In this document: positions 1,945 through 63,443 of the stretch, piece after piece
Layout: each line of letters begins with the position of its first letter
Numbering within the stretch: position 1 is the first letter of the stretch
Assembly (NCBI GenBank): GCA_009844085.1
Contig: VYCF01000073.1
Location: forward strand, 62,001-126,000
DNA from: Gammaproteobacteria bacterium
Lineage (GTDB): Bacteria > Pseudomonadota > Gammaproteobacteria > Pseudomonadales > Pseudohongiellaceae
Length of the DNA: 64,000 bases
Direction: 5' to 3'
Position numbers and translations under genes: made by a program
Notes under the pieces: model-generated
Told to the model about the DNA's origin: nothing
Databases searched by the model: none
Seen by the model: only the letters and a program-made list of their open reading frames with translations

Positions 1945-2670
1945 CTATCGACACACTTTCAGGTAGCCGGAAACGTGTCCGAGCAGCGATCCCACAAACC
2001 GTTGAAAACTGATTTCTTCAGACGGTTCACGGTACCAGCCTTCCAGCCCTTGAGATCGATTCGACGTCACGAGACATGCTGAGTTGTACAGGCGCTCTCT
2101 AACCAGCCTTGTACAAAACTCTTCGTATCGTTTCACATACGAGCTTCCGCGGAATTTCTCGTGCACTTTAAAGTGCGGTTCCTTCGCCGTTATTGGGCGC
2201 ATGGATTTAGGGGATTCCTGGAGCATCATCAGGTAACCCAACCAAGGGCTGGCAGAGGGCTTGAAGTACCCTTCCCGATAAGCCGTGTGGAGGTCCAGCG
2301 CGTTTCCGAGGGCCTCCTCGATTCGATTATTGTAATTGTTCCCGAAAGATCCTACTTGCGATTTGAATTCGATCGTAGCAACCAGATTTCCTTCATGTAC
2401 GACGACCAGATCCCACTGCTTGGTTGGCCTGAAGAATCCAGGTAGCGTCGTTTGGCTCTGTTGCGTATGCACATGGGCTTCCGGCATTCCGGATTCAATC
2501 AGAAGGTCTGCGAACAGTTGTACGAATCCGTCCAGTTGCTTACCGCCGGTCGCGGCGCCCCGGTTGCCATGGTCGCGCAAACCGGATTCCGATCCCTGTC
2601 TCTGTTTCTGGTCGGCCCGGGTTTCCCAGAAATGCCTGACAGCACCGCGCAGCCGAGACTCGATTCTCAC
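1945..2670 (-). CDS. Type II restriction endonuclease, PaeR7I/XhoI family
   Basis: Predicted to cut unmethylated CTCGAG in the cytoplasm. At 241 aa it is close to the ~246 aa of XhoI and PaeR7I. A PD-(D/E)xK-type site is visible: the WD pair at 86-87 and EFK at 101-103, followed by the family block around GSFGNNYNNRIEEALGNA (108-125). The gene overlaps the methyltransferase by 4 nt (ATGA), so the two are translationally coupled. It is the last gene of the XRE-methyltransferase-endonuclease operon and converges on the cusA-like gene. CTCGAG sites occur in the window (for example near 19713, 45567 and 48374), so the partner methylase must protect the host if the enzyme is active. Specificity is inferred from the family. 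Confidence 0.88.
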   Translation of the reverse strand: MRIESRLRGAVRHFWETRADQKQRQGSESGLRDHGNRGAATGGKQLDGFVQLFADLLIESGMPEAHVHTQQSQTTLPGFFRPTKQWDLVVVHEGNLVATIEFKSQVGSFGNNYNNRIEEALGNALDLHTAYREGYFKPSASPWLGYLMMLQESPKSMRPITAKEPHFKVHEKFRGSSYVKRYEEFCTRLVRERLYNSACLVTSNRSQGLEGWYREPSEEISFQRFVGSLLGHVSGYLKVCR

Positions 2671-3623
2671 GCAGCTATCACCGAAACATCACTGAACAAT
2701 TCGCTGGTTTCCTTATGGACGCGGTCGACAGCCATCTTGTGGTACTGAGGGTCAACTTCCACTCCGATGCTGTTGCGGCCCCATCTTGCGGCCGCCACGC
2801 TGGTAGTGCCCGTGCCGAGAAACGGATCAAGCACGGTATCGCCCACAAAACTGAACATGCGAATCAGCCGTTCCGCGACCTGCAATGGAAATGGCGCAGG
2901 ATGGTCTCGGGTCGAAGCGCCCGTGACGCCTTGCCAAATTTGCTGAAACCATAGTTTGTGGTTCTGGTGCGAAATGACGCTCAGGACTCGCTTTTCAAAG
3001 CTCGGTTTTCGATAACCGCCGCCCTTGCGCTCCATGAGTATGTACTCGATGTCGTTCTTGATGACCGAGTTCGGCTCGTAGGGCTTTCCAAGGAAAGCCG
3101 AACCGCCTGGAACCTCGTAATTTGCGTTCGCGATCTTGTACCAGATGATCGGGGCCAGGTTCACATAGCCCATCTTGCGGCAACGCTCTTGTATCGAAGC
3201 GTGCAAAGGCATAACCGAGTGTTCGCCATTGTTCTTTCTTCGAGACAGGCATACGTCGCCAACCACGCAGATCAGCCGGCCACCAGGGACAAGAGCCTTG
3301 TAGCAACGCTTCCAGACCTTGTCGAGTTCGTCCAGGAATTGTTCGTAGCCGGCGATGTACCCCATTTGCCCTTCATGCTCGTTGTAGCGTTTGAGCGTCC
3401 AGTACGGCGGCGACGTGACGATCAGATGGACACTCTCCGGGCTTAGCTCAAGCAGCCGCGAATCCTGCAATAACAGATTGTGAGTCGTTGGAATTTGATG
3501 AAGCGAGTGTTCGATGCGCGCGAGTAGTTTCGCGTCCTTCGCGATCCTCGGCAGTTCAGTCTGCGGATTCTCAATCCCGCGCAACTCCTCCGGGATGAAC
3601 TGTTCTAATGATTCCTTGTTCAT
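2667..3623 (-). CDS. Beta-class DNA methyltransferase of the PaeR7I-like R-M system
   Basis: S-adenosylmethionine-dependent DNA amino-methyltransferase of 318 aa. The order of motifs is beta class: catalytic motif IV TSPPYW at 70-75, then the target-recognition region, motif X HPAPFP at 241-246 and SAM-binding motif I DPFLGTGT at 266-273. An SPPY-type catalytic motif is most often found in N4-cytosine methylases, whereas the classic PaeR7I/XhoI partners are reported as N6-adenine enzymes, so the methylated base is open. It lies 40 nt downstream of an XRE regulator and overlaps the endonuclease by 4 nt. Together they form a complete type II system. Confidence 0.88.
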   Translation of the reverse strand: MNKESLEQFIPEELRGIENPQTELPRIAKDAKLLARIEHSLHQIPTTHNLLLQDSRLLELSPESVHLIVTSPPYWTLKRYNEHEGQMGYIAGYEQFLDELDKVWKRCYKALVPGGRLICVVGDVCLSRRKNNGEHSVMPLHASIQERCRKMGYVNLAPIIWYKIANANYEVPGGSAFLGKPYEPNSVIKNDIEYILMERKGGGYRKPSFEKRVLSVISHQNHKLWFQQIWQGVTGASTRDHPAPFPLQVAERLIRMFSFVGDTVLDPFLGTGTTSVAAARWGRNSIGVEVDPQYHKMAVDRVHKETSELFSDVSVIAA

Positions 3624-3663
3624 CTACTCAAATTCTCCTGGCTTCGTGTCCATAACCTACTAG

Positions 3664-3984
3664 CTACTGGCCTTGTGCCAGTTGCAAGGGGCGTTGCGGG
3701 TTTTCAGGCGCATTCACCAGCAACCTCAAAAGCGGCGCCGCCAGACTCGAAATATCTTCATCCGCAATGTCGGTCGGATCGGATGCCAGCAGCGTGATCA
3801 ACGAAATCGGCGCGTCCACCGCCGCGGCAAGGCCGCCTACGACCTTCAAGCTAGGCTGGCGCTTGCCCTTCTCAATAAGCGAGAGCTGACTCGCGCTGAT
3901 GCCGATCTGCAAGGCGAGTTCCGCCTGCTGCATACCGTATGCTGCGCGAATCACCCTGAAAGCCTTGGCAAAATCTGTTTTCAT
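3664..3984 (-). CDS. XRE-family regulator, probable controller protein of the R-M operon
   Basis: Small (106 aa) protein with a Cro/C1-type helix-turn-helix over residues ~8-62; the recognition helix region contains SASQLSLIEKGKRQPS. It is the first gene of the operon XRE, methyltransferase, endonuclease. That position and size fit an R-M controller (C) protein, which delays endonuclease expression, but C proteins are usually 80-100 aa and this one has a ~40-aa C-terminal tail with no recognised domain. An inverted repeat overlapping a TTGACA-like -35 element lies just upstream (4004-4029) and could be its operator. The alternative is a generic XRE repressor acquired with the island. Confidence 0.75.
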   Translation of the reverse strand: MKTDFAKAFRVIRAAYGMQQAELALQIGISASQLSLIEKGKRQPSLKVVGGLAAAVDAPISLITLLASDPTDIADEDISSLAAPLLRLLVNAPENPQRPLQLAQGQ

Positions 3985-4003
3985 ATGATTACCGGAGTGT
4001 CAC

Positions 4004-4029
4004 CCAGTTTAAGCACAAATGTCAACTGG
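4004..4029 (-). promoter_or_regulatory. Putative promoter/operator of the XRE-R-M operon
   Basis: The arms CCAGTT and AACTGG form an inverted repeat 14 nt apart, and a perfect -35 hexamer TTGACA (minus strand, 4025-4020) lies inside it. The matching -10 region is poor. A repressor bound here would cover the -35 element, which fits autoregulation by the XRE gene starting at 3984. Seen by eye only. Confidence 0.35.
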
Positions 4030-4080
4030 ATTTACAAATTGCAGAGAATTTTTACTTCAAGGAATTATTATTTTCACAAT

Positions 4081-4776
4081 TTATACGCCACTGTAGGCAG
4101 AGTTTCTCGACACCACGGGGTAGAAGGGCTGGCCCCAGTCGCCGCCGGGATGGCTCATCATCACATCGACAAACACTGGAATCAGGAAGGCGAGAATTGC
4201 AGCACCATCGCGCACTTGATTGCGGTTGACTTCACTATCCCAAGTCGCACCTCCGTGTACCAATTGGTTTCTCAAGACATATAGCCTGTCAAATACGAGA
4301 GCCAACGCTCTTTTGGTGTTGTCATTAGTTTTTCTCGATACAATCTGTTTGAAAGCTCTCAATTCGCGCTGAAATCGGACTTCCCAATCTTTGTATCCTT
4401 TCATTCCGTTTTGATGTTTCCAGAATGGCTTGAATACAAACTCGTTTTTCATTAACTGATGAATGGGCCCAGAAAAATTACCCCAGATGGCGTTGTAGAT
4501 TCTCTTATCTGCGTCTAGCGTAACTACTTTGCCAAAGTAGGACTTGAATGAGTCCATTGCCAATGGAGGTTCGATCTGAAAGTCTCGTTCATCAGCGTAG
4601 GCTGCATTGAAAGCGATCCAAAGAAAAATAAACTTCCCATCATCGTCACCCGCCTGCTCCGCACGTCCAATCCAACTGATAGCACGTTGCGTGCGAAGGC
4701 GAAGATTTTCAGGGAAGCTATCCCTGATTTCCCTCTGTTTGTCTTTCAAAACGGCATAGGTTAGCAATGGGTTCAT
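4081..4776 (-). CDS. HEPN-domain protein (putative RNase or abortive-infection type)
   Basis: A 231-aa protein without signal peptide or membrane segment. Near the C-terminus RNQLVHG carries the HEPN RX4H signature (R169, H174), the catalytic dyad of many HEPN ribonucleases. An aromatic helix FIFLWIAFNAAYAD (49-62) precedes it, as in ApeA-like HEPN proteins. No nucleotidyltransferase (MNT) partner gene lies beside it. It sits behind the R-M operon on the same strand, so a defence role is plausible by context. I recognise the fold signature, not the exact family, and RNase activity is inferred. Confidence 0.6.
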   Translation of the reverse strand: MNPLLTYAVLKDKQREIRDSFPENLRLRTQRAISWIGRAEQAGDDDGKFIFLWIAFNAAYADERDFQIEPPLAMDSFKSYFGKVVTLDADKRIYNAIWGNFSGPIHQLMKNEFVFKPFWKHQNGMKGYKDWEVRFQRELRAFKQIVSRKTNDNTKRALALVFDRLYVLRNQLVHGGATWDSEVNRNQVRDGAAILAFLIPVFVDVMMSHPGGDWGQPFYPVVSRNSAYSGV

Positions 4777-4967
4777 TGTTGATCCGCCAATGGAGATTGT
4801 ATTGCCCGATTATGGTCGAAACCGTTGAGGGACGCCAAATTTGACCAATTCAGCATACAATTAGCCGCGATGACCCCGCCGTGCGGAGGTATTTGGATTT
4901 GAACAGCGATTCGCGTATGGTTCGTCTCGACCTCAAGGACCGATGTTAACATCTGAAAGAGAGCCCA

Positions 4968-5660
4968 ATGACCAGGTATCAATTGACCAGGAAAGATCCC
5001 CGAGCGCTTCCCGCCTACACCATTACGGAAGTCGCTCACTATCTCACCGTGCCCCCGGCAACAATTCGCTACTGGTCGGTGGGCCGGGACGACTATGCGC
5101 CGCTGATCGAGGTGCCTAGACACTCCCCCACGTTGCTCTCGTTCCTGAACCTTACCGAGCTTCACGTGCTCGCAGCCATTCGGCGCAGGCCCCTGGTGAA
5201 GATGCCGAGCATCAGACGCGCGATCAATTTCCTTGTGAGAAATGCCCGCAGAGCCATGGACAAGAACCATCCGTTAATCAGCCGCGATCTGGAAACGGAT
5301 GGACTGGATCTTTTCATTCAGGAATACGGCCAGTTGATCAATATCAGTAGATCGGGCCAAATAGCCATGCGGGAGATCATCAGCGGGGCGCTAACGCGGA
5401 TTCATCGAGACCCTACCGGAATCCCAATCAAGCTCTTCCCATTCACACGGTCTGCAATTATGGGGACTCCCACGAAGGTCATCATCGACCCGACAATTTC
5501 CGCCGGACGCCCCGTCATAGCCGGCACCGGGCTGACCGCTGAACTCATCGCCGAACGCTACAAGGCCGGCGAATCAATTTCGGCTTTGGCGCAGGACTAT
5601 GAGCGCACGGAAGATGATATCGAAGAAGCAATCCGATGCGAATCCCAGATTGTCGCCTGA
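4968..5660 (+). CDS. DUF433 protein with N-terminal HTH-like segment (antitoxin-like)
   Basis: 230 aa. The first ~45 residues (YTITEVAHYLTVPPATIRYW) look like a MerR-type helix-turn-helix. The last ~65 residues are a DUF433 domain (DPTISAGRPVIAGTGLTAELIAERY is its typical opening). Long DUF433 proteins of this layout are usually antitoxins paired with a PIN-like toxin (VapC45 or DUF5615). No such toxin follows, and the next gene, 93 nt away, is an AT-rich nuclease-like gene. It may be an orphan antitoxin or work with a different partner. A weak GAGAG element precedes the ATG. Confidence 0.7.
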   Translation: MTRYQLTRKDPRALPAYTITEVAHYLTVPPATIRYWSVGRDDYAPLIEVPRHSPTLLSFLNLTELHVLAAIRRRPLVKMPSIRRAINFLVRNARRAMDKNHPLISRDLETDGLDLFIQEYGQLINISRSGQIAMREIISGALTRIHRDPTGIPIKLFPFTRSAIMGTPTKVIIDPTISAGRPVIAGTGLTAELIAERYKAGESISALAQDYERTEDDIEEAIRCESQIVA

Positions 5661-5678
5661 ACTTTCACCACGTACATA

Positions 5679-5705
5679 TTGGAAAAACAACAAGGAGCGT
5701 ATAAT
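5679..5705 (+). promoter_or_regulatory. Sigma-70-like promoter of the nuclease-like gene
   Basis: A consensus -10 TATAAT lies at 5700-5705, with TTGGAA (4 of 6 to consensus) 15 nt upstream. It is ~47 nt ahead of the gene starting at 5753, which suggests that this gene has its own promoter rather than read-through from the DUF433 gene. Confidence 0.45.
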
Positions 5706-5752
5706 TTTAAAATGCCGTCATATCTGTACAGAATCAAAAAGGAAACCACGCA

Positions 5753-6241
5753 ATGAATCACCTTGAACAGTTAGTATCAGAATGGTACGAGTATCGAGGA
5801 TATTTTGTTCGTCGAAATGTCAATGTTGGCGCTCGTGAGAAGGGCGGTTACGAATGTGAGTTAGATATTATTGCTTATCATCCGGGCAATCGTAATCTAG
5901 TTCAAATAGAAGCATCAATGGATGCTCATACCTGGGAGAGACGAGAACAACGTTTCCGAAAAAAATTTGAAGCAGGAAAAAAGTACATTCCGCAACTCTT
6001 TTTTGGAATTGAAATTCCAAATGAAATAGTCCAAATCCCATTGCTAGGATTTGGAAGCAACAAAAATGTCAAGAAATTGGCTGGTCATACAATAGTTACA
6101 GTTTCAGACTTACTAGTCGAGATCACTAGCGAGTTGTCTAACAAAAAAATTTCAAAGGCTGCTGTTCCAGAGCAGTTCCCGCTCCTACGTACAATTCAGT
6201 TTGTTTGCGAGCATAGACACGCAATTGGATGGAGTATTTAG
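5753..6241 (+). CDS. Uncharacterised protein with a PD-(D/E)xK-like nuclease signature
   Basis: 162 aa. ECELDIIAY (34-42) followed by LVQIEAS (49-55) resembles the acidic strand pair of the restriction-endonuclease fold, with E36/D38 and E53. The usual lysine after the second acid is Ala (IEA), and basic residues shortly downstream (WERREQRFRKKFEAGKK) might substitute, so activity is uncertain. The gene is clearly AT-richer than the flanking chromosome, has its own TATAAT promoter, and converges on the TIR-like gene. An AGGA element precedes the ATG. Foreign origin is likely. Function is unknown; a defence nuclease or an inactive DNA-binding relative are both possible. Confidence 0.55.
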   Translation: MNHLEQLVSEWYEYRGYFVRRNVNVGAREKGGYECELDIIAYHPGNRNLVQIEASMDAHTWERREQRFRKKFEAGKKYIPQLFFGIEIPNEIVQIPLLGFGSNKNVKKLAGHTIVTVSDLLVEITSELSNKKISKAAVPEQFPLLRTIQFVCEHRHAIGWSI

Positions 6242-6394
6242 CCTTGGATAGACTCCAATTATTGGATAAGCGCCAAAAATCAACTTAACCACTACATCTG
6301 CAGAGTTCAACGATTCGGTATGTAAGCTAGATGTACTGAAAATGTCAACGATGCTCCGACTTGAACACATACACTTAAATGGCTGAAATTATTC

Positions 6395-7177
6395 TCAAAA
6401 TGGAATATCTTCGTCATTATAAAAATCTGTTAGCATAAGATTTTTTCGATTTGATGGAAAACTAGAGTCATTCTCTTTCACCCAATCCCAACCATTTACT
6501 GTCAATTGAACTCCTCTAAAGTGGTGATCATCTGATTCATCATACGAATCTATCAATTCGATTATCTTTTTTCCAATAAGTTTACGGAATGCTATGCCAA
6601 AATCGAACGAGCCCATCCCTGAGTTTCTAGCTATGTTTTGCAGCGAAAATGGATGCGAAACACTACCTGTAACACCAGTTTCTCCAACTATTATTGATGT
6701 AAGTAATTTTTCCTCTATACTTAAATCATCATACGAGTATTGCTGTTTATCGGCTATTGTCCTTGGTGAAGTTGGATGCTGCATCAACGCTTTTGCTGTA
6801 TTTGTGATTTCATTCTTTAGTTTATTAAAATCACTTGCTGACTCAGAAATGTATTCGATTATCTTTCGATGCTGAATGTCGAACGGAAATCCACTTTCTC
6901 GCTCTTTTGAGCATACTAAAATCACATCCTTTCCGGCTGCAAATGCATATCCCAACTCATACCATACATTTGGATTATTTGTTGTGATGTCCGCGAAACA
7001 TATGTCGCTACATACAATTCCTTCCTCAATAGCGGTTATTGGAATTCTTACCCTTGGATCCTCATCTACTCGATACGGATTCAACCCTGCATCAATAAGT
7101 GCCGGTTTGAATATATCTCTATATCGCTTATCAAATTTACCTGAATCAAATGGTTGTATCACAAAACACTTAAACAT
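6395..7177 (-). CDS. TIR/nucleoside 2-deoxyribosyltransferase-like protein with winged-helix tail
   Basis: 260 aa from the ATG at 7177; a TTG at 7195 would add six residues, but AAAGG is better placed for the ATG. The N-terminal ~110 residues follow the pattern of stress-response deoxyribosyltransferase/TIR-like domains: CFVIQPF opening, CSDICFADITTNNPNVWYELGYAFA with the conserved Glu (E74) expected to be catalytic, then PFDIQHR. The C-terminal ~110 residues, ending in VQLTVNGWDWV, look like a winged helix. Such domains cleave N-glycosidic bonds of nucleotides or NAD, or bind them as sensors in phage defence. It is AT-rich like its convergent neighbour. The fold is a reasonable call; substrate and role are inference. 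Confidence 0.6.
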   Translation of the reverse strand: MFKCFVIQPFDSGKFDKRYRDIFKPALIDAGLNPYRVDEDPRVRIPITAIEEGIVCSDICFADITTNNPNVWYELGYAFAAGKDVILVCSKERESGFPFDIQHRKIIEYISESASDFNKLKNEITNTAKALMQHPTSPRTIADKQQYSYDDLSIEEKLLTSIIVGETGVTGSVSHPFSLQNIARNSGMGSFDFGIAFRKLIGKKIIELIDSYDESDDHHFRGVQLTVNGWDWVKENDSSFPSNRKNLMLTDFYNDEDIPF

Positions 7178-7261
7178 ACTTTTTAACCTTTCCAATATCG
7201 ACCAAGAAGCCTGGGCTTTGTGTTAAGTGATTATTCTGCCATCACAATATAGCTGTTGAAC

Positions 7262-9121
7262 CTACAACAACCCCTCAATCCGATCCATCAAGTCCTCCAT
7301 CCGCCGCAGCACCGGCTCATACGCCTCCGGCTGGGTCATATCCAGCCCGGCCTCGTCTAGCAGGATGTTGTGCGGGTAGTCCGACCCGCCGGCGCTGAGT
7401 ACGCGGATGAATGCGTCCCGCACCGCCTCGTCGCCGGCCAGGAACTGCTCGGCGAACCAGGCGGCGCCGGTGATCGAGGTGGCGTATTGGAAGACGTAGA
7501 AGTCGTAGTAGAAATGCGGGATGAAGGCCCATTCGACGGTGTAGGCGTCGTCGATGGTGAGTACGCCGAGGTCGTGGCCGTGGTAGCGCTTGAGCAGGTC
7601 GCCGTAGATTTCGGTCAGGCGCGGGCCGGTGAGGGGCTCGCCGCGTTCTGCTGCGCGGTGAATCGCGAGTTCGAATTCGGCGAACATCGTCTGGCGGAAC
7701 AGGGTGCCGCGGATCTGTTCGAGGGCGCCGCCGAGGTAGAACAGCCGCTCGGCGTCGGTGCTTGCGTTCGCGATCATGTATTCCTGCAGCAGGATTTCGT
7801 TGATGGTCGAGGCCAGTTCGGCGGTGAAGGTCGAATAGCCCGCGGTTTCAAAGGGGTTGCTGGCGTTGGCGAGCAGGCTGTGGACGGCGTGGCCCCACTC
7901 GTGGGCGAAGGTCGACATCGACTCGTAGTCGTCATTGTGGTTGAGCAGCACGTAGGGGTGCACGTCGTAAACCGAGCCGTTCATGTAGGCGCCAGAGCGC
8001 TTGCCGGGCTGCGGATGGCTGTGCATCCATTGCTGCGACAGGCCGTATTCGAGCAGTTCGAGGTATTGCTCGCCGAAGGGTTCCAGCGCGGCGAAAGTGA
8101 TTTCCGACGAGCGTTCGAGGTCGAAGACGCCGGTTTCCGCCTGCACCAGGGGCGGGTAGATGTCGTAATAGCGCAGGTCCTCGATGCCGAGCAGGCGGCC
8201 GCGCAGTTCGAGATAGCGGTGGAACAGCGGCAGGGCGTCGTTTACCTGGGTGACGAGTTGCGTGTAGATCTCTGGCGGCAGGCCGTCGGCGAACAGGTTG
8301 GCTTCGAGTACGCCGGGGTGATTGCGCACCCGGGCGCTGAAGACATTGGCCTGGGCTTCGGCGGCGAGGGTCGCGCCCATGCCGTCGGCGTACTGGTTCC
8401 AGGCGCCCCAGAAGGTGTCGAAGACGAGCTTGCGGTCGTCGCGGTTTGGCGCGGCGCGCCAGAAGGAATAGCCGGCCTGGCTCAAGGTCGCTTCGGTGCC
8501 GTCGCTCAGGATCACCGTCGGCCAGGGAATGTCGGCGTTGGCGTAGTTCTCGTAGATCTGCTGCGGGGCCGAGAGCACCATGCCGGCCTGGGCGAGGATC
8601 GCCTCGGTGCGCTGGTCGAGGGTGTGCGGTTCCTGCCGCAGGATGTCTTCGAGCATGAAGCCGAACTTCTCAAGTCGCGGTTCCTGTTGGCGAAAGCTGC
8701 GGATGTTGTCCGCACCGAGGTCTAGAATTTCCGGGCGCAGCCAGGAGGTGGCCTGTTCCAGGTTGGTCAGCATCTGCCGGGCGCGGGCGAAGCGCGCCTG
8801 GGCCGCGGGCTCGCGCTGGTCGACGTCGCGCATCAGGCTGGTGTAGACGTAGACGCGATACGCTTCCTTCGTGGTGTCGGACTGGGCTTCGAGGGCGTCC
8901 GCGAGTTCGGCGGCGCCGTTATCGAGCGTGCCGCGGTAGCGCGACAGGGCGTCGAGCCGATTGGTCACGGCACTGATTGCCCCCTCCCACGCCTCCACCG
9001 TCGGATAGATGTCGGTCAGGTCCCATTCGTAGCGCACGGCGTCGGACTGCGCATGGACATTGACGGCAATTCCCGTCAACAGCGTGAAAACAAGTAAGGC
9101 GGAAACCCTTTTCGTTTGCAT
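7262..9121 (-). CDS. pepF: Secreted oligoendopeptidase F family metallopeptidase (M3B)
   Basis: Zinc endopeptidase degrading oligopeptides. 619 aa, within the family's usual ~600. The zinc motif HEWGH is near residue 405, followed by the conserved Glu region in FTAELASTINEILLQEY. An N-terminal signal peptide (about 25 residues, cut after AQS) sends it to the periplasm, which is unusual because classic PepF is cytoplasmic; exported homologues are common in environmental proteobacteria. It starts at the ATG at 9121, diverging from the flavoprotein gene. No operon partner. It fits the nearby secreted peptidases as part of peptide scavenging. Confidence 0.85.
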   Translation of the reverse strand: MQTKRVSALLVFTLLTGIAVNVHAQSDAVRYEWDLTDIYPTVEAWEGAISAVTNRLDALSRYRGTLDNGAAELADALEAQSDTTKEAYRVYVYTSLMRDVDQREPAAQARFARARQMLTNLEQATSWLRPEILDLGADNIRSFRQQEPRLEKFGFMLEDILRQEPHTLDQRTEAILAQAGMVLSAPQQIYENYANADIPWPTVILSDGTEATLSQAGYSFWRAAPNRDDRKLVFDTFWGAWNQYADGMGATLAAEAQANVFSARVRNHPGVLEANLFADGLPPEIYTQLVTQVNDALPLFHRYLELRGRLLGIEDLRYYDIYPPLVQAETGVFDLERSSEITFAALEPFGEQYLELLEYGLSQQWMHSHPQPGKRSGAYMNGSVYDVHPYVLLNHNDDYESMSTFAHEWGHAVHSLLANASNPFETAGYSTFTAELASTINEILLQEYMIANASTDAERLFYLGGALEQIRGTLFRQTMFAEFELAIHRAAERGEPLTGPRLTEIYGDLLKRYHGHDLGVLTIDDAYTVEWAFIPHFYYDFYVFQYATSITGAAWFAEQFLAGDEAVRDAFIRVLSAGGSDYPHNILLDEAGLDMTQPEAYEPVLRRMEDLMDRIEGLL

Positions 9122-23943: not shown

Positions 23944-24522
23944 CTACAAAAACGACTGATACTCATCCATGAGAGTTGCGACCTGAAGCAATCCCTGCGC
24001 CTCCGCTTTGCGGACTAGTGCTGTGGCATCAAGACCTGGACTTTTGAGGCGTTCTCTCATCCGCTTCAAAGCTTGTATGGCCTCAATCGGGTCAAGCGTG
24101 AATGTGTCCGCGATAAAACTATCTGCGGAAATTGCCTCGATTTCATGTGGAGCCAGTATGTCTGCGGGAAAATCCGAGAGATTGTCGGTGACTATGACGG
24201 AAGCTGAAATGGTAATGGCTGCCGCCAATACATGATTGTCGTTGGGATCGGGCAATTTCAGCGTTTTCTCGATTGCTTCGAAGCCATTAACGACAGCTTC
24301 GGGAAACGCAGCCTCTATTGCTGCCCGCTGATGTGAGCCGTCGGTTTCGCCGTTGGTTATCTCCGAGATGGCCTTCTGCGTTTCATCAAGTATGCGAGCG
24401 CTCCAACGCGGCCGGAATAGGCCCGCTTCAGCTAGGCTGAGCAGCAAATTGCGGCGTAGCGCTCCGCCAAGGACACAAGCATCGATAAGCGCAGTGAACC
24501 GGTCGGTGTACCGGCTCCTCAT
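23944..24522 (-). CDS. PIN-domain ribonuclease toxin
   Basis: 192 aa. The PIN-type acidic residues are visible: ALIDACVLGG (first Asp), an Asp pair in LPDPNDNHVLAAA and the late VTDNLSDFP. PIN toxins of this type cleave RNA with Mg2+. It overlaps the upstream antitoxin gene by 4 nt (24519-24522), the usual order antitoxin then toxin. The ~75-residue C-terminal extension after the PIN core is typical of the longer PIN proteins paired with excisionase-type antitoxins. RNA target unknown. Confidence 0.78.
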   Translation of the reverse strand: MRSRYTDRFTALIDACVLGGALRRNLLLSLAEAGLFRPRWSARILDETQKAISEITNGETDGSHQRAAIEAAFPEAVVNGFEAIEKTLKLPDPNDNHVLAAAITISASVIVTDNLSDFPADILAPHEIEAISADSFIADTFTLDPIEAIQALKRMRERLKSPGLDATALVRKAEAQGLLQVATLMDEYQSFL

Positions 24523-24983
24523 ATGAGCCCCTGTTCCGCATCAGTGCGGGCAAGAGCTTCCAAGGCAGAGGACCGAGTTGCATCGCGCCTGTCCCTGTAG
24601 GAGAACAAATCGTTGGCGCGGATACGACGATGTCTGCCAGTCTTGGTAAACGGGATATCACCACCCTCGATCAGCTTTATGAGATAGGGCCTCGACACAT
24701 TCAGCAGGTCGGCGGCTTGCTGTGTTGTCAGTTCCGCCTCCACGGGAATCATGCGGAAGCCACGACCGCTCGACACGAGCCTCAGCACTTCGAGCAGCGA
24801 CTCCGTCAAGGCCGGCGTCAACGTTATGGTCTCGATCTTGCCATTGTCCTGGGCAAGGGATAGCCTGGCGCCTTCGCCATCACTGGTCTGGGAAGCAACG
24901 ATCATTCTGAGTTGTTCCGCATTCTCGATCTCGACCTCGTCTGGCAATCGATCAAAGAAAGCATCTCTCCTGAGCGCGTTCAT
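24519..24983 (-). CDS. Excisionase/MerR-type HTH antitoxin for the PIN toxin
   Basis: 154 aa. The C-terminal half has an excisionase-family helix-turn-helix (TTQQAADLLNVSRPYLIKLI, then GRHRRIRANDLFSY). The N-terminal ~75 residues are a dimerisation or neutralisation region without a recognised motif. It is coupled to the PIN toxin by a 4-nt overlap. Antitoxins of this kind repress their own promoter, and candidate operator repeats lie just upstream at 25033-25063. Confidence 0.78.
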   Translation of the reverse strand: MNALRRDAFFDRLPDEVEIENAEQLRMIVASQTSDGEGARLSLAQDNGKIETITLTPALTESLLEVLRLVSSGRGFRMIPVEAELTTQQAADLLNVSRPYLIKLIEGGDIPFTKTGRHRRIRANDLFSYRDRRDATRSSALEALARTDAEQGLI

Positions 24984-54699: not shown

Positions 54700-54887
54700 G
54701 TTCCTGCCGGTTGCGGAGCCAAACGGCTAATTATCCGCCAAGCTCTCACGTCGGGCAAATCCGGCTTACTTGATATTGGTTGACGGAAACTACAAAAAGA
54801 CTGGAAGAAATTAAGCGGGTTTTAGATCAATGGTATAGACTTGGAAGAGGACGAATTAACCCGGCAACCGGAATTCAGGAGGCAGAT

Positions 54888-55364
54888 GTGGCAGGTCGCG
54901 GAGTCAACAAGGTAATACTTATCGGCAATCTCGGAAGGGATCCCGAAATTCGCTACACACCGGACGGAGTTGCGATCGCCAATGTGACGATCGCGACCAC
55001 GGATTATTGGAACGATCGCAACACCGGCGAACGGCAGGAGCGCACCGAATGGCATCGCGTCGTGTTCTTCCGCAAGCTGGCGGAAATTGTCGAGCAGTAT
55101 CTGAAGAAGGGCTCCAAGGTGTATGTAGAAGGCAGGCTGCAAACGCGGTCATGGGAGCAGGAAGGCGTCAAGCGCTACACCACCGAGATCATAGCCAACG
55201 AAATGACGATGCTCGACTCGCGGGGTGATGCGGGGAGCGGGGGGGGCTCTTTCGAACAGCGGCAGCCGGCGGCGGCCGGCGGCGGCCAGCAGGAAAAGGC
55301 CGCGGCGGCCCAGTCGGAATCGTCCGGCTTCGACAACTTCGACGACGACGATATCCCGTTCTGA
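54888..55364 (+). CDS. ssb: Single-stranded DNA-binding protein
   Basis: 158 aa from the GTG at 54888, chosen because AGGAGG sits 5 nt ahead and SSBs begin with the [12 protein letters not shown] block; the frame is open to 54780 but those residues are not SSB-like. OB-fold residues 1-110, a Gly/Gln-rich linker, and the acidic tip DDDIPF that recruits replication and repair proteins. Divergent from uvrA. Confidence 0.97.
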
Positions 55365-61907: not shown

Positions 61908-62315
61908 TTATTCTTCGGAGAAGAAGTCTTCGTCAATCCGTTTGATTTTGATCGTATCTCTTGTTCTTACACCGATGTCATGAGCCACCATAAGGCGCGC
62001 GAGATCTTCGCCGTCGATCAATACGATACTCTTCGGGCTTCGAGCAACGTAGTCTCTCGCGGCTTTCGTAAAGGAAGCCGTAGTTACAAACTCACCTTTA
62101 TTCGTTGCCGCCGCATCTATCGCGCCGGCGAAATCGCGCAGGGCCGGCTCTCCAACCGTCTGATCTTCAGAATATTTTTTCGCTTGAACATATACTTCAT
62201 CTAGCCCCAAGGCGTCTTCCCGGATGGTGCCGTCAATTCCGCCGTCTCCTGATTTCCCAACAACTGTTCCGCGATCCGGCATTCCTCTGAGGGTTTGGAA
62301 ATCTGGTACAGACAT
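61908..62315 (-). CDS. Mrr-type restriction endonuclease, catalytic domain only
   Basis: 135 aa against ~300 for full Mrr proteins. The Mrr_cat core is intact: GKSGDGGIDG with D28 and VYVQAKKY with Q44/K46, then KGEFVTTASFTKAARDY and LIDGEDLARLM. The N-terminal DNA-binding winged helix and the start of the catalytic domain (the FE-LV helix) are missing. A good AGGAG site precedes the ATG, overlapping the Fic stop, so it is translated as it stands. It is either a 5'-truncated remnant or a minimal nuclease that acts with the Fic gene 9 nt upstream. Confidence 0.72.
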   Translation of the reverse strand: MSVPDFQTLRGMPDRGTVVGKSGDGGIDGTIREDALGLDEVYVQAKKYSEDQTVGEPALRDFAGAIDAAATNKGEFVTTASFTKAARDYVARSPKSIVLIDGEDLARLMVAHDIGVRTRDTIKIKRIDEDFFSEE

Positions 62316-62324
62316 TTTGTCTCC

Positions 62325-63443
62325 TTACTCTGAAATCTCGTCCGGCAAGCGGTAGCTCGTACTTCTTCCGCCACCGGGGTTCTGTATGAATACTTCCCTA
62401 GCTTTAAGGTTTTGAATATCCCTGAGAGCGGTATCCGCCGAGCATTTTGCCAGACTGGCGTATTTCGATGTATTCATGAAGCCGACGAAATCGTCCTCCA
62501 GCATTCGGTTGATGACGCAACGCTGGCGTTCGTTTACTGGATCCTCATTTACTTGTTCCCATAGTCGCGCCTTATAGAGCACTCGGGACAGGGACTGTGC
62601 CGCGCTGGCGATGGCGCGGCCGAGACAATCCACAAACCACTGCAGCCAGTCTGTGATGTCTGGAGTGCCGCGCTGTTGCTTCTCAAGTTGATCGTAATAG
62701 TCCTTGCGCTCGGACTCGATCTGTGTGGAAAGACTGTAATAGCGGTCGGCCATGCCGTCCGCTCGCGCCAGGGCCATATCTGCAATCGCCCTGCCAATAC
62801 GGCCGTTGCCATCCTCGAACGGGTGTATGGTGAGAAACCAAAGGTGGGCAATGCCCGCTTTCAACACGGGATCTATCTCGTCTGCGTTTTCGAACCAGGC
62901 AAGAAACCCGGTCATTTCCGTTTCGAGTCTTTCCGCCCCAGGCGCTTCAAAATGAACTGTCTCGCGTCCCACGGGTCCGGACACTATTTGCATTGGACCG
63001 CTTTCGGTATTGCGCCAGGCGCCAACCGTAATCCTGCGTATTCCGCTGCGGCCTGCGGGAAACATCGCGGCATGCCAGTCGCACAAACGATCTTTGGTGA
63101 GCGGTTCGGAAAACCTGCGTGTGGCGTCAAGCATCATTTCGACAATGCCTTCCACGTCACGGCTGACCGGAACCATGCCGGCGGTCTGGATTCCGAGCCG
63201 GCGGGCGATGGATGAGCGGACCTCATCGACGTCGAGCCTTTCTCCTTCTATCGCCGACGATTTCACGACCTCGCTGGTCAAGCTGCGCAAGTTTGCCTCA
63301 TGCCTGAGAGAGAATCCCAATCCTTCCATCCTGCCTTGCAGGCGCCCTTGCCGATGCCTGACGTCCGCCAGTCTCGAAGTCAATCTGTCGGCATCACAGA
63401 CGAAATTCGGCCAGTCCCGATGTTGGTGGATCCACATATTCAC
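62325..63443 (-). CDS. Fic-family AMP-transferase, class II with inhibitory motif
   Basis: 372 aa from the GTG at 63443, or 370 from the ATG at 63437. The catalytic motif HPFEDGNGRIGRA starts at H207, and the autoinhibitory SSAIEGE (S62 to G67) precedes the Fic core, so the enzyme should be held inactive until released. The C-terminal ~70 residues look like a winged helix (TSKYASLAKCSADTALRDIQ). Fic proteins of this layout AMPylate proteins such as gyrase or act on unknown targets. Five copies of a 10-bp repeat lie at and before its start, and the Mrr fragment follows on the same transcript. Confidence 0.88.
   Translation of the reverse strand: MNMWIHQHRDWPNFVCDADRLTSRLADVRHRQGRLQGRMEGLGFSLRHEANLRSLTSEVVKSSAIEGERLDVDEVRSSIARRLGIQTAGMVPVSRDVEGIVEMMLDATRRFSEPLTKDRLCDWHAAMFPAGRSGIRRITVGAWRNTESGPMQIVSGPVGRETVHFEAPGAERLETEMTGFLAWFENADEIDPVLKAGIAHLWFLTIHPFEDGNGRIGRAIADMALARADGMADRYYSLSTQIESERKDYYDQLEKQQRGTPDITDWLQWFVDCLGRAIASAAQSLSRVLYKARLWEQVNEDPVNERQRCVINRMLEDDFVGFMNTSKYASLAKCSADTALRDIQNLKAREVFIQNPGGGRSTSYRLPDEISE

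Follow-up and report, generated by a model that had tools for sequence, protein, structure and literature searches.

Sensing of phage by stand-alone TIR-type effectors is unsettled for most of these proteins. The closest described case is Swarozyc (KpSwz), a one-protein anti-phage system with a TIR-like DUF4062 NADase domain and an HTH/winged auxiliary domain; the auxiliary domain senses the phage portal, and the protein acts by NAD+ depletion and abortive infection (PMC13174449). Retron-Eco1-type effectors combine a nucleoside deoxyribosyltransferase (NDT)-like domain with a DNA-binding-type domain (PMC12548924).

We analyzed a 64,000-nt stretch of a Pseudohongiellaceae contig (the window), which carries the adjacent genes A and B (Table 1). 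Like Swarozyc, B is one protein with an N-terminal TIR-like domain, in B a predicted one and in Swarozyc one distantly similar to NDT; where Swarozyc has a C-terminal HTH/winged domain, the C-terminal region of B is winged-helix-like by profile (E = 0.0008). B differs in that Pfam searches of nine B family members (E up to 1) gave no match to DUF4062, and in that it is known here from its sequence, whereas Swarozyc is known as a portal-sensing NADase. By profile, and down to the Glu motif, B belongs to the same domain class as DNPH1/Rcl and the nucleoside 2-deoxyribosyltransferases (PF05014), but it scores under the Pfam cut-off and has an additional winged helix and an SSB-like tip. With the TIR proteins of CBASS, Pycsar and Thoeris it shares weak matches (a PADLOC TIR effector for B, CAP12/Pycsar TIR for the family). 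A CD-NTase, ThsA or similar partner was found among none of the seven window proteins scanned at 1948-7177. The predicted domain combination of B is that of the retron-Eco1-type effectors; a role as retron effector was rejected, as a search of the genome for a reverse transcriptase (RVT_1) gave no match.

We propose, at even odds (a probability of roughly 0.5), that B is a stand-alone TIR/NDT-like glycosidase effector that does not work with A and that its tip couples it to replication.

Genes A and B occupy a variable, AT-rich spot

The open reading frames of A and B are real, convergent and AT-rich relative to the chromosome, as first annotated, with GC contents of 0.395 (A) and 0.363 (B), compared with 0.599 in the window as a whole. 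The lowest GC content among 560 segments of 780 bp taken from positions 7300 to 64000 is 0.459, so none reaches the AT-richness of B. B starts with ATG at 7177, and a TTG lies in frame at 7195. The TATAAT hexamer assigned to a promoter of A is present at 5700-5705; the TTGGAA upstream of it lies at 15 nt, and since our promoter scan accepts 16-18 nt, the site went unlisted. Seven promoter-like sites were listed in 5600-7400, compared to 5.5 (SD 2.3) in shuffled sequences, i.e., no excess.

The neighborhood of restriction-modification, HEPN and DUF433 genes is likewise borne out by Pfam matches. To the left of A and B lie genes for an XhoI-type endonuclease, a methyltransferase, an HTH protein, a HEPN-like protein (weak match, E = 0.011) and a DUF433 protein (clear DUF433 match and a weak MerR-type HTH match). 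The last two may form a toxin-antitoxin-like module.

Table 1. Features of the window discussed in the text (positions counted from its first nucleotide)
Feature	Position	Strand	Remarks
HEPN-like and DUF433 genes	4081-4776 and 4968-5660	- and +	Pfam matches
Gene A	5753-6241	+	162 aa; orphan protein; E36, D38 and E53 invariant
Gene B	6395-7177	-	260 aa; predicted NDT/TIR-like domain, winged helix and SSB-like tip
B residues 254-260, NDEDIPF, SSB-like C-terminal tip	6398-6418	-	conserved in nine family members
B residues about 150-245, winged helix, MarR/PadR-like	6443-6730	-	TcaR profile match at residues 171-242, E = 0.0008
B residues 1-130, NDT/TIR-like domain	6788-7177	-	PF05014 in 9/9 members
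B Glu74, catalytic-type	6956-6958	-	invariant in 9/9
Right-hand neighbor, 619 aa	7262-9121	-	presumably a peptidase
Host SSB, ending FDDDDIPF	54780-55364	+	PF00436, E = 9e-41

What lies downstream of the peptidase-like gene varies between near relatives. In G033, whose copy of the 619-aa gene is 93% identical over 430 bp, homologs of the HEPN and DUF433 genes follow directly, and A and B are absent. In G021 (94% over 4177 bp), a 184-aa gene with a GC content of 0.36 occupies the spot. This gene (L071, 158-712) has no Pfam match. The HEPN-like and DUF433 homologs also stand together in G033 (L078, 439-1143 and 1223-1915), in a relative order that differs from that in the window. A search for island ends gave just an 18-bp direct repeat (94%) lying within two genes, plus short matches, which we rejected as ends.

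B is predicted to join an NDT/TIR-like domain to a winged helix

Profile searches bear out the annotated architecture of B, in which a winged helix follows an NDT/TIR-like domain, and the motif NPNVWYELG is present in the protein. Our family alignment (A7) comprises nine full-length sequences, 30-44% identical to B, among them the near-identical members L220/L221 and L223/L225; a further copy, L224, was excluded. Pfam identified Nuc_deoxyrib_tr (PF05014) throughout the family with a best E of 1e-5, while B itself scored 21.8 bits, under the gathering cut-off of 28.8. The same nine members gave CAP12/Pycsar TIR matches in four cases, TIR_2 in three and PadR in one, and a PADLOC TIR effector matched B (E = 1e-6). 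Against the PDB, B as a single sequence had no match; the A7 profile matched DNPH1/Rcl N-glycosidases over residues 17-87 (best E = 0.003), and over residues of about 170-248 it matched winged helices of the TcaR/PadR type, where TcaR reached E = 0.0008 and the others 0.036-0.36. Judging from these profile scores, B consists of an NDT/TIR-like domain with an invariant Glu and a MarR/PadR-like winged helix.

The domain fits nucleotide hydrolases such as DNPH1 as well as NADases. B could be a DNPH1-like hydrolase, placed at the fork by its SSB-like tip, that destroys unusual deoxynucleotides, e.g., modified ones of phages, with no cell suicide. Such tethering would suit a nucleotide enzyme, and DNPH1/Rcl, a 5-hydroxymethyl-dUMP hydrolase, is the only solved structure matched by the N-terminal domain besides one Blasticidin M chain. 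The TIR_2, CAP12/Pycsar TIR and PADLOC TIR effector matches speak against this explanation, and the small DNPH1/Rcl enzymes are not known to have a winged helix or a large C-terminal region; we consider it unlikely. The substrate cannot be read from the sequence, because the active sites of NDTs and DNPH1 resemble that of a Thoeris ThsB (PMC11204291).

A two-sequence B profile matched 30 of 369 genomes of the class. Outside B it matched 33 places, and only the one in G390 extends into the C-terminal half, the rest ending by position 147. B was absent from the 36 same-genus genomes searched besides its own. Seven of the nine family members come from viral contigs: in L220, L221, L223 and L225 the B homolog has one shared position, flanked by genes that look phage-late-like by eye, and other open reading frames of L008 resemble capsid and protease genes, also by eye. 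In G390, the surroundings of the copy include genes that look excisionase-like and transposase-like by eye. The family is likely carried as phage cargo, perhaps directed against competing phages. A correspondence between the C-terminal region of B and a winged-helix-like neighbor of the G390 homolog was rejected (0.7%, no similarity).

B ends in a conserved SSB-like tip

B carries one feature that was absent from the initial annotation, an SSB-like tip at its extreme C-terminus. SSB uses its C-terminal tip to bind proteins of DNA replication. This tip has the form DDDIPF (PMC5872125). As in SSB, acidic residues followed by Ile/Leu/Val-Pro-Phe end the protein after a variable linker; unlike SSB, B has no SSB domain, and its tip sits on an enzyme-like protein. 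The SSB encoded in the window ends in the same way; its SSB domain begins at residue 42 of the open reading frame, so the true start may be later.

All nine aligned family members retain a close variant of the tip after a variable linker. Positions -5 and -6 are acidic in all nine, the penultimate residue is Pro in eight, and the last residue is Phe in eight and Tyr in one. Entropy is 0-0.5 bits at these positions and at least 1.84 bits at the variable positions -8 to -30. The linker between the winged helix and the tip is variable, and proline-rich in some members.

In 2029 distinct open reading frames from the window and a first set of loci, D[ILV]P[FYW] ends occurred five times: in B, its G390 relative, the NDT protein L034 and two SSBs. 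One of six plasmid NDT proteins (L133) ends in DFDEIPF; the other five have no such end. Two scans of viral contigs with NDT-domain alignments (best 80 of 186 and best 80 of 251 loci) enlarged the set to 3619 open reading frames. The strict tip, [DE][ILVM]P[FYWL] at the C-terminus, was found in 17 of 146 NDT/TIR-like proteins versus 3 of 3473 other open reading frames (Fisher P = 8e-22, uncorrected for relatedness). Those three are all SSBs: the host SSB, the annotated SSB of phage SAP-26 and a frame resembling the host SSB (30%, E = 1e-18). Behind the NDT domain the same four letters occurred at 4 of 16,521 nonterminal positions.

The 18 strict or one-residue-looser tips all fall among 102 proteins in which a long extension follows an N-terminal NDT domain, and none among the other 44. 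The tip-bearing proteins form three C-terminal clusters, with such tips in 9 of 43, 4 of 9 (the B family) and 5 of 9 members; the five further B family members end in close variants, and all nine proteins of the third cluster end in PF. Counted by identity cluster, the strict tip was present in 13 of 125 clusters at 70%, 6 of 79 at 50% and 4 of 30 at 40%. It is lacking in 129 of the 146 proteins. PDB profile searches with the C-terminal regions of the two other tip clusters returned the NDT part and two unconvincing matches for one and nothing for the other.

Instead of docking on another protein, the tip of B might bind in cis, e.g., to its own winged helix, as an autoinhibitory latch that SSB or a phage protein opens. 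Some SSB-interacting proteins bind the SSB tip through a winged-helix domain, and the tip of B is kept while linker lengths vary, both of which fit a latch. The two other tip-bearing NDT clusters have no recognized winged helix, which argues against it, and we regard the latch as rather improbable.

The ending could also be an effect of chance or composition, or serve another role such as stability, with no binding to SSB-interacting proteins. Under a broader definition of the tip (27 of 146 NDT/TIR-like proteins versus 6 of 3473 others), three of the six are neither SSBs nor NDT proteins, and the seeds of our scans included tip-bearing proteins, so that relatives of these are over-represented. 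Against this, nine relatives keep the tip as their last residues after a linker that varies, and the strict definition applied to none of 3470 open reading frames outside the NDT class and the SSBs. We therefore give this explanation little credence.

A scan for viral open reading frames ending in FDDDIPF listed at least 120 stretches; among the matches listed, 97 of 114 distinct frames were SSBs, 17 were others and none was an NDT protein. The non-SSB frames include L301, L323, L340, L343 and L372, L340 being helicase-like by eye. An SSB-like tip may also serve other phage proteins. A separate NDT/TIR-like gene (L134, 2971-3846) lies between CI repressor and integrase genes on a phage-like plasmid of Pantoea dispersa; its product has no SSB-like tip. 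Among the papers listed on SSB or SSB-Ct combined with phage mimicry, defense or NADase, in a library with few subscription journals, we found none on an SSB-like tip of TIR/NDT proteins; such a tip may already be published.

Proposed coupling of B to replication

From its domains and ending, B would be an NAD+- or nucleotide-cleaving effector, probably anti-phage, that is coupled to SSB-interacting replication proteins. The tip of B would occupy the pocket that receives the SSB tip on at least one replication or repair protein that interacts with SSB, whether encoded by host or phage, and thereby couple the enzyme to the state of the replication fork. Phage replication would then alter the occupancy of the pocket, e.g., by adding large numbers of SSB tails or by hijacking an SSB-interacting protein. 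Plain competition would need a discriminating factor, because cells already hold many SSB tails. On release or clustering, the TIR/NDT domains could become active as a glycohydrolase, and cleavage of NAD+ or a related nucleotide would stop the infected cell.

If so, the tip suggests a testable route to the sensing of phage replication. A copied SSB tip narrows the candidate partners to a short list, the SSB-interacting proteins, and supplies a sequence rule by which further effectors that may monitor replication can be found. More tentatively, and with less than even confidence, we suggest that TIR/NDT-like effectors carrying a mimic of the SSB tip form a broad set, bacterial as well as phage-borne, with three or more kinds of C-terminal region. 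They would plug into the SSB-interaction hub and watch forks, and takeover of SSB-interacting proteins by a phage or a flood of phage SSB would trigger the destruction of NAD+ or nucleotides.

Gene A does not co-occur with gene B in the genomes searched

The initial annotation took A and B for one sensor-plus-nuclease system and named absence of co-occurrence as what would speak against it. We ran this check, and homologs of the two genes co-occur neither locally nor genome-wide in the data searched. The B profile matched 4 of 19 A-bearing genomes or records, namely the full-length gene of the home genome and three domain-only matches; full-length B was thus found in none of the 18 others. Conversely, A was sought in 33 genomes or records (its own, 30 others that carry B or just its N-terminal domain, plus G033 and G021 as relatives) and was present only in its own, i.e., in none of the 30. 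The flanks of the 18 other A loci, some of them short, contained no B homolog beside A, with a remote TPR-TIR protein in L011 as the sole exception. Adjacent, convergent and both AT-rich as the two genes are, a single two-gene defense system is very improbable given these counts and the three A homologs that sit between oxidase-type genes, and as a conserved pair A and B are already refuted. Dropping this reading keeps them from being pursued as one system. We see A as a gene of its own, seldom found, that would have come to this AT-rich site independently of B.

One scan of a genome collection yielded 14 loci with A homologs, 46-69% identical, from several bacterial phyla and one archaeon; three plasmid records and G182 hold further ones. 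None was found in the phage collection or, with six peptide patterns, in viral contigs. Of 61 genomes of the genus, only its own carries A; the samples drawn gave two carriers among 274 genomes at class level and one among 398 at phylum level (own genome counted in each). Values of dN/dS were 0.026-0.053 in three pairs, a fourth being saturated. A is thus an orphan of rare and widely scattered occurrence that purifying selection maintains.

The description of A as a degenerate PD-(D/E)xK protein is weakly supported. Our alignment contains 14 sequences (L009-L012 and L026 were excluded, L009 and L026 being interrupted), and the three acidic residues were correctly named and are invariant in it. 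At the Lys position, two residues past E53, each of 17 sequences (L010-L012 included) has Ser or Thr, and similarity to Mrr is weak (hhalign 17%, score 25.8 versus 21.3 for the best of 50 shuffles; control YraN against Mrr, 81%). Pfam matches of the 14 members span seven weak families, with UPF0102 (E = 0.02) and Mrr_cat (E = 0.025) in one member each and lower E-values for two non-nuclease families. PADLOC gave one weak match (PDC-M07B, E = 0.012, 1 of 14 members), and a PDB profile search none at E up to 10. The acidic pattern makes a nuclease fold plausible. A YraN-like identity was rejected, as the hhalign match (6%) aligns the wrong parts of the two families.

Neighbors of A are shared only between two Azospirillum plasmids and among L021, L022 and L024. 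In these three betaproteobacterial contigs (around position 8000), the A homolog is kept beside metabolic genes, since it is flanked by two oxidase-type genes, which we take to be glcE and glcF. PADLOC matched 9 of 20 proteins neighboring A homologs, and 11 had no match; the 20 were partly picked for a defense-like look, so that no rate can be derived. Matches were Pbe-like (L020), type I restriction (L015), a methyltransferase (L016), TIR-type (L025), helicase-type (L017), ThsB-like plus TIR-type (L011) and a candidate (L018). In the Methanocellaceae archaeon (L020, 2302-7909), the A homolog follows shortly after PbeA- and PbeC-like genes. L012 and L013 resemble arrays of small genes; A as an integron cassette was rejected, as a home-made attC search found a single site across 19 loci (in L022, at a distance of 5 kb from A), with 0 or 1 per locus in shuffles.

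Elsewhere in the window, a short Mrr_cat protein (61908-62315, minus strand, 135 aa, matching from profile position 26) adjoins a Fic/DUF4172 protein (62325-63443, minus strand), both in an AT-richer stretch. A PIN_3 protein and an HTH_17 protein overlap at 23944-24522 and 24519-24983 (both minus strand), perhaps as a toxin-antitoxin pair.
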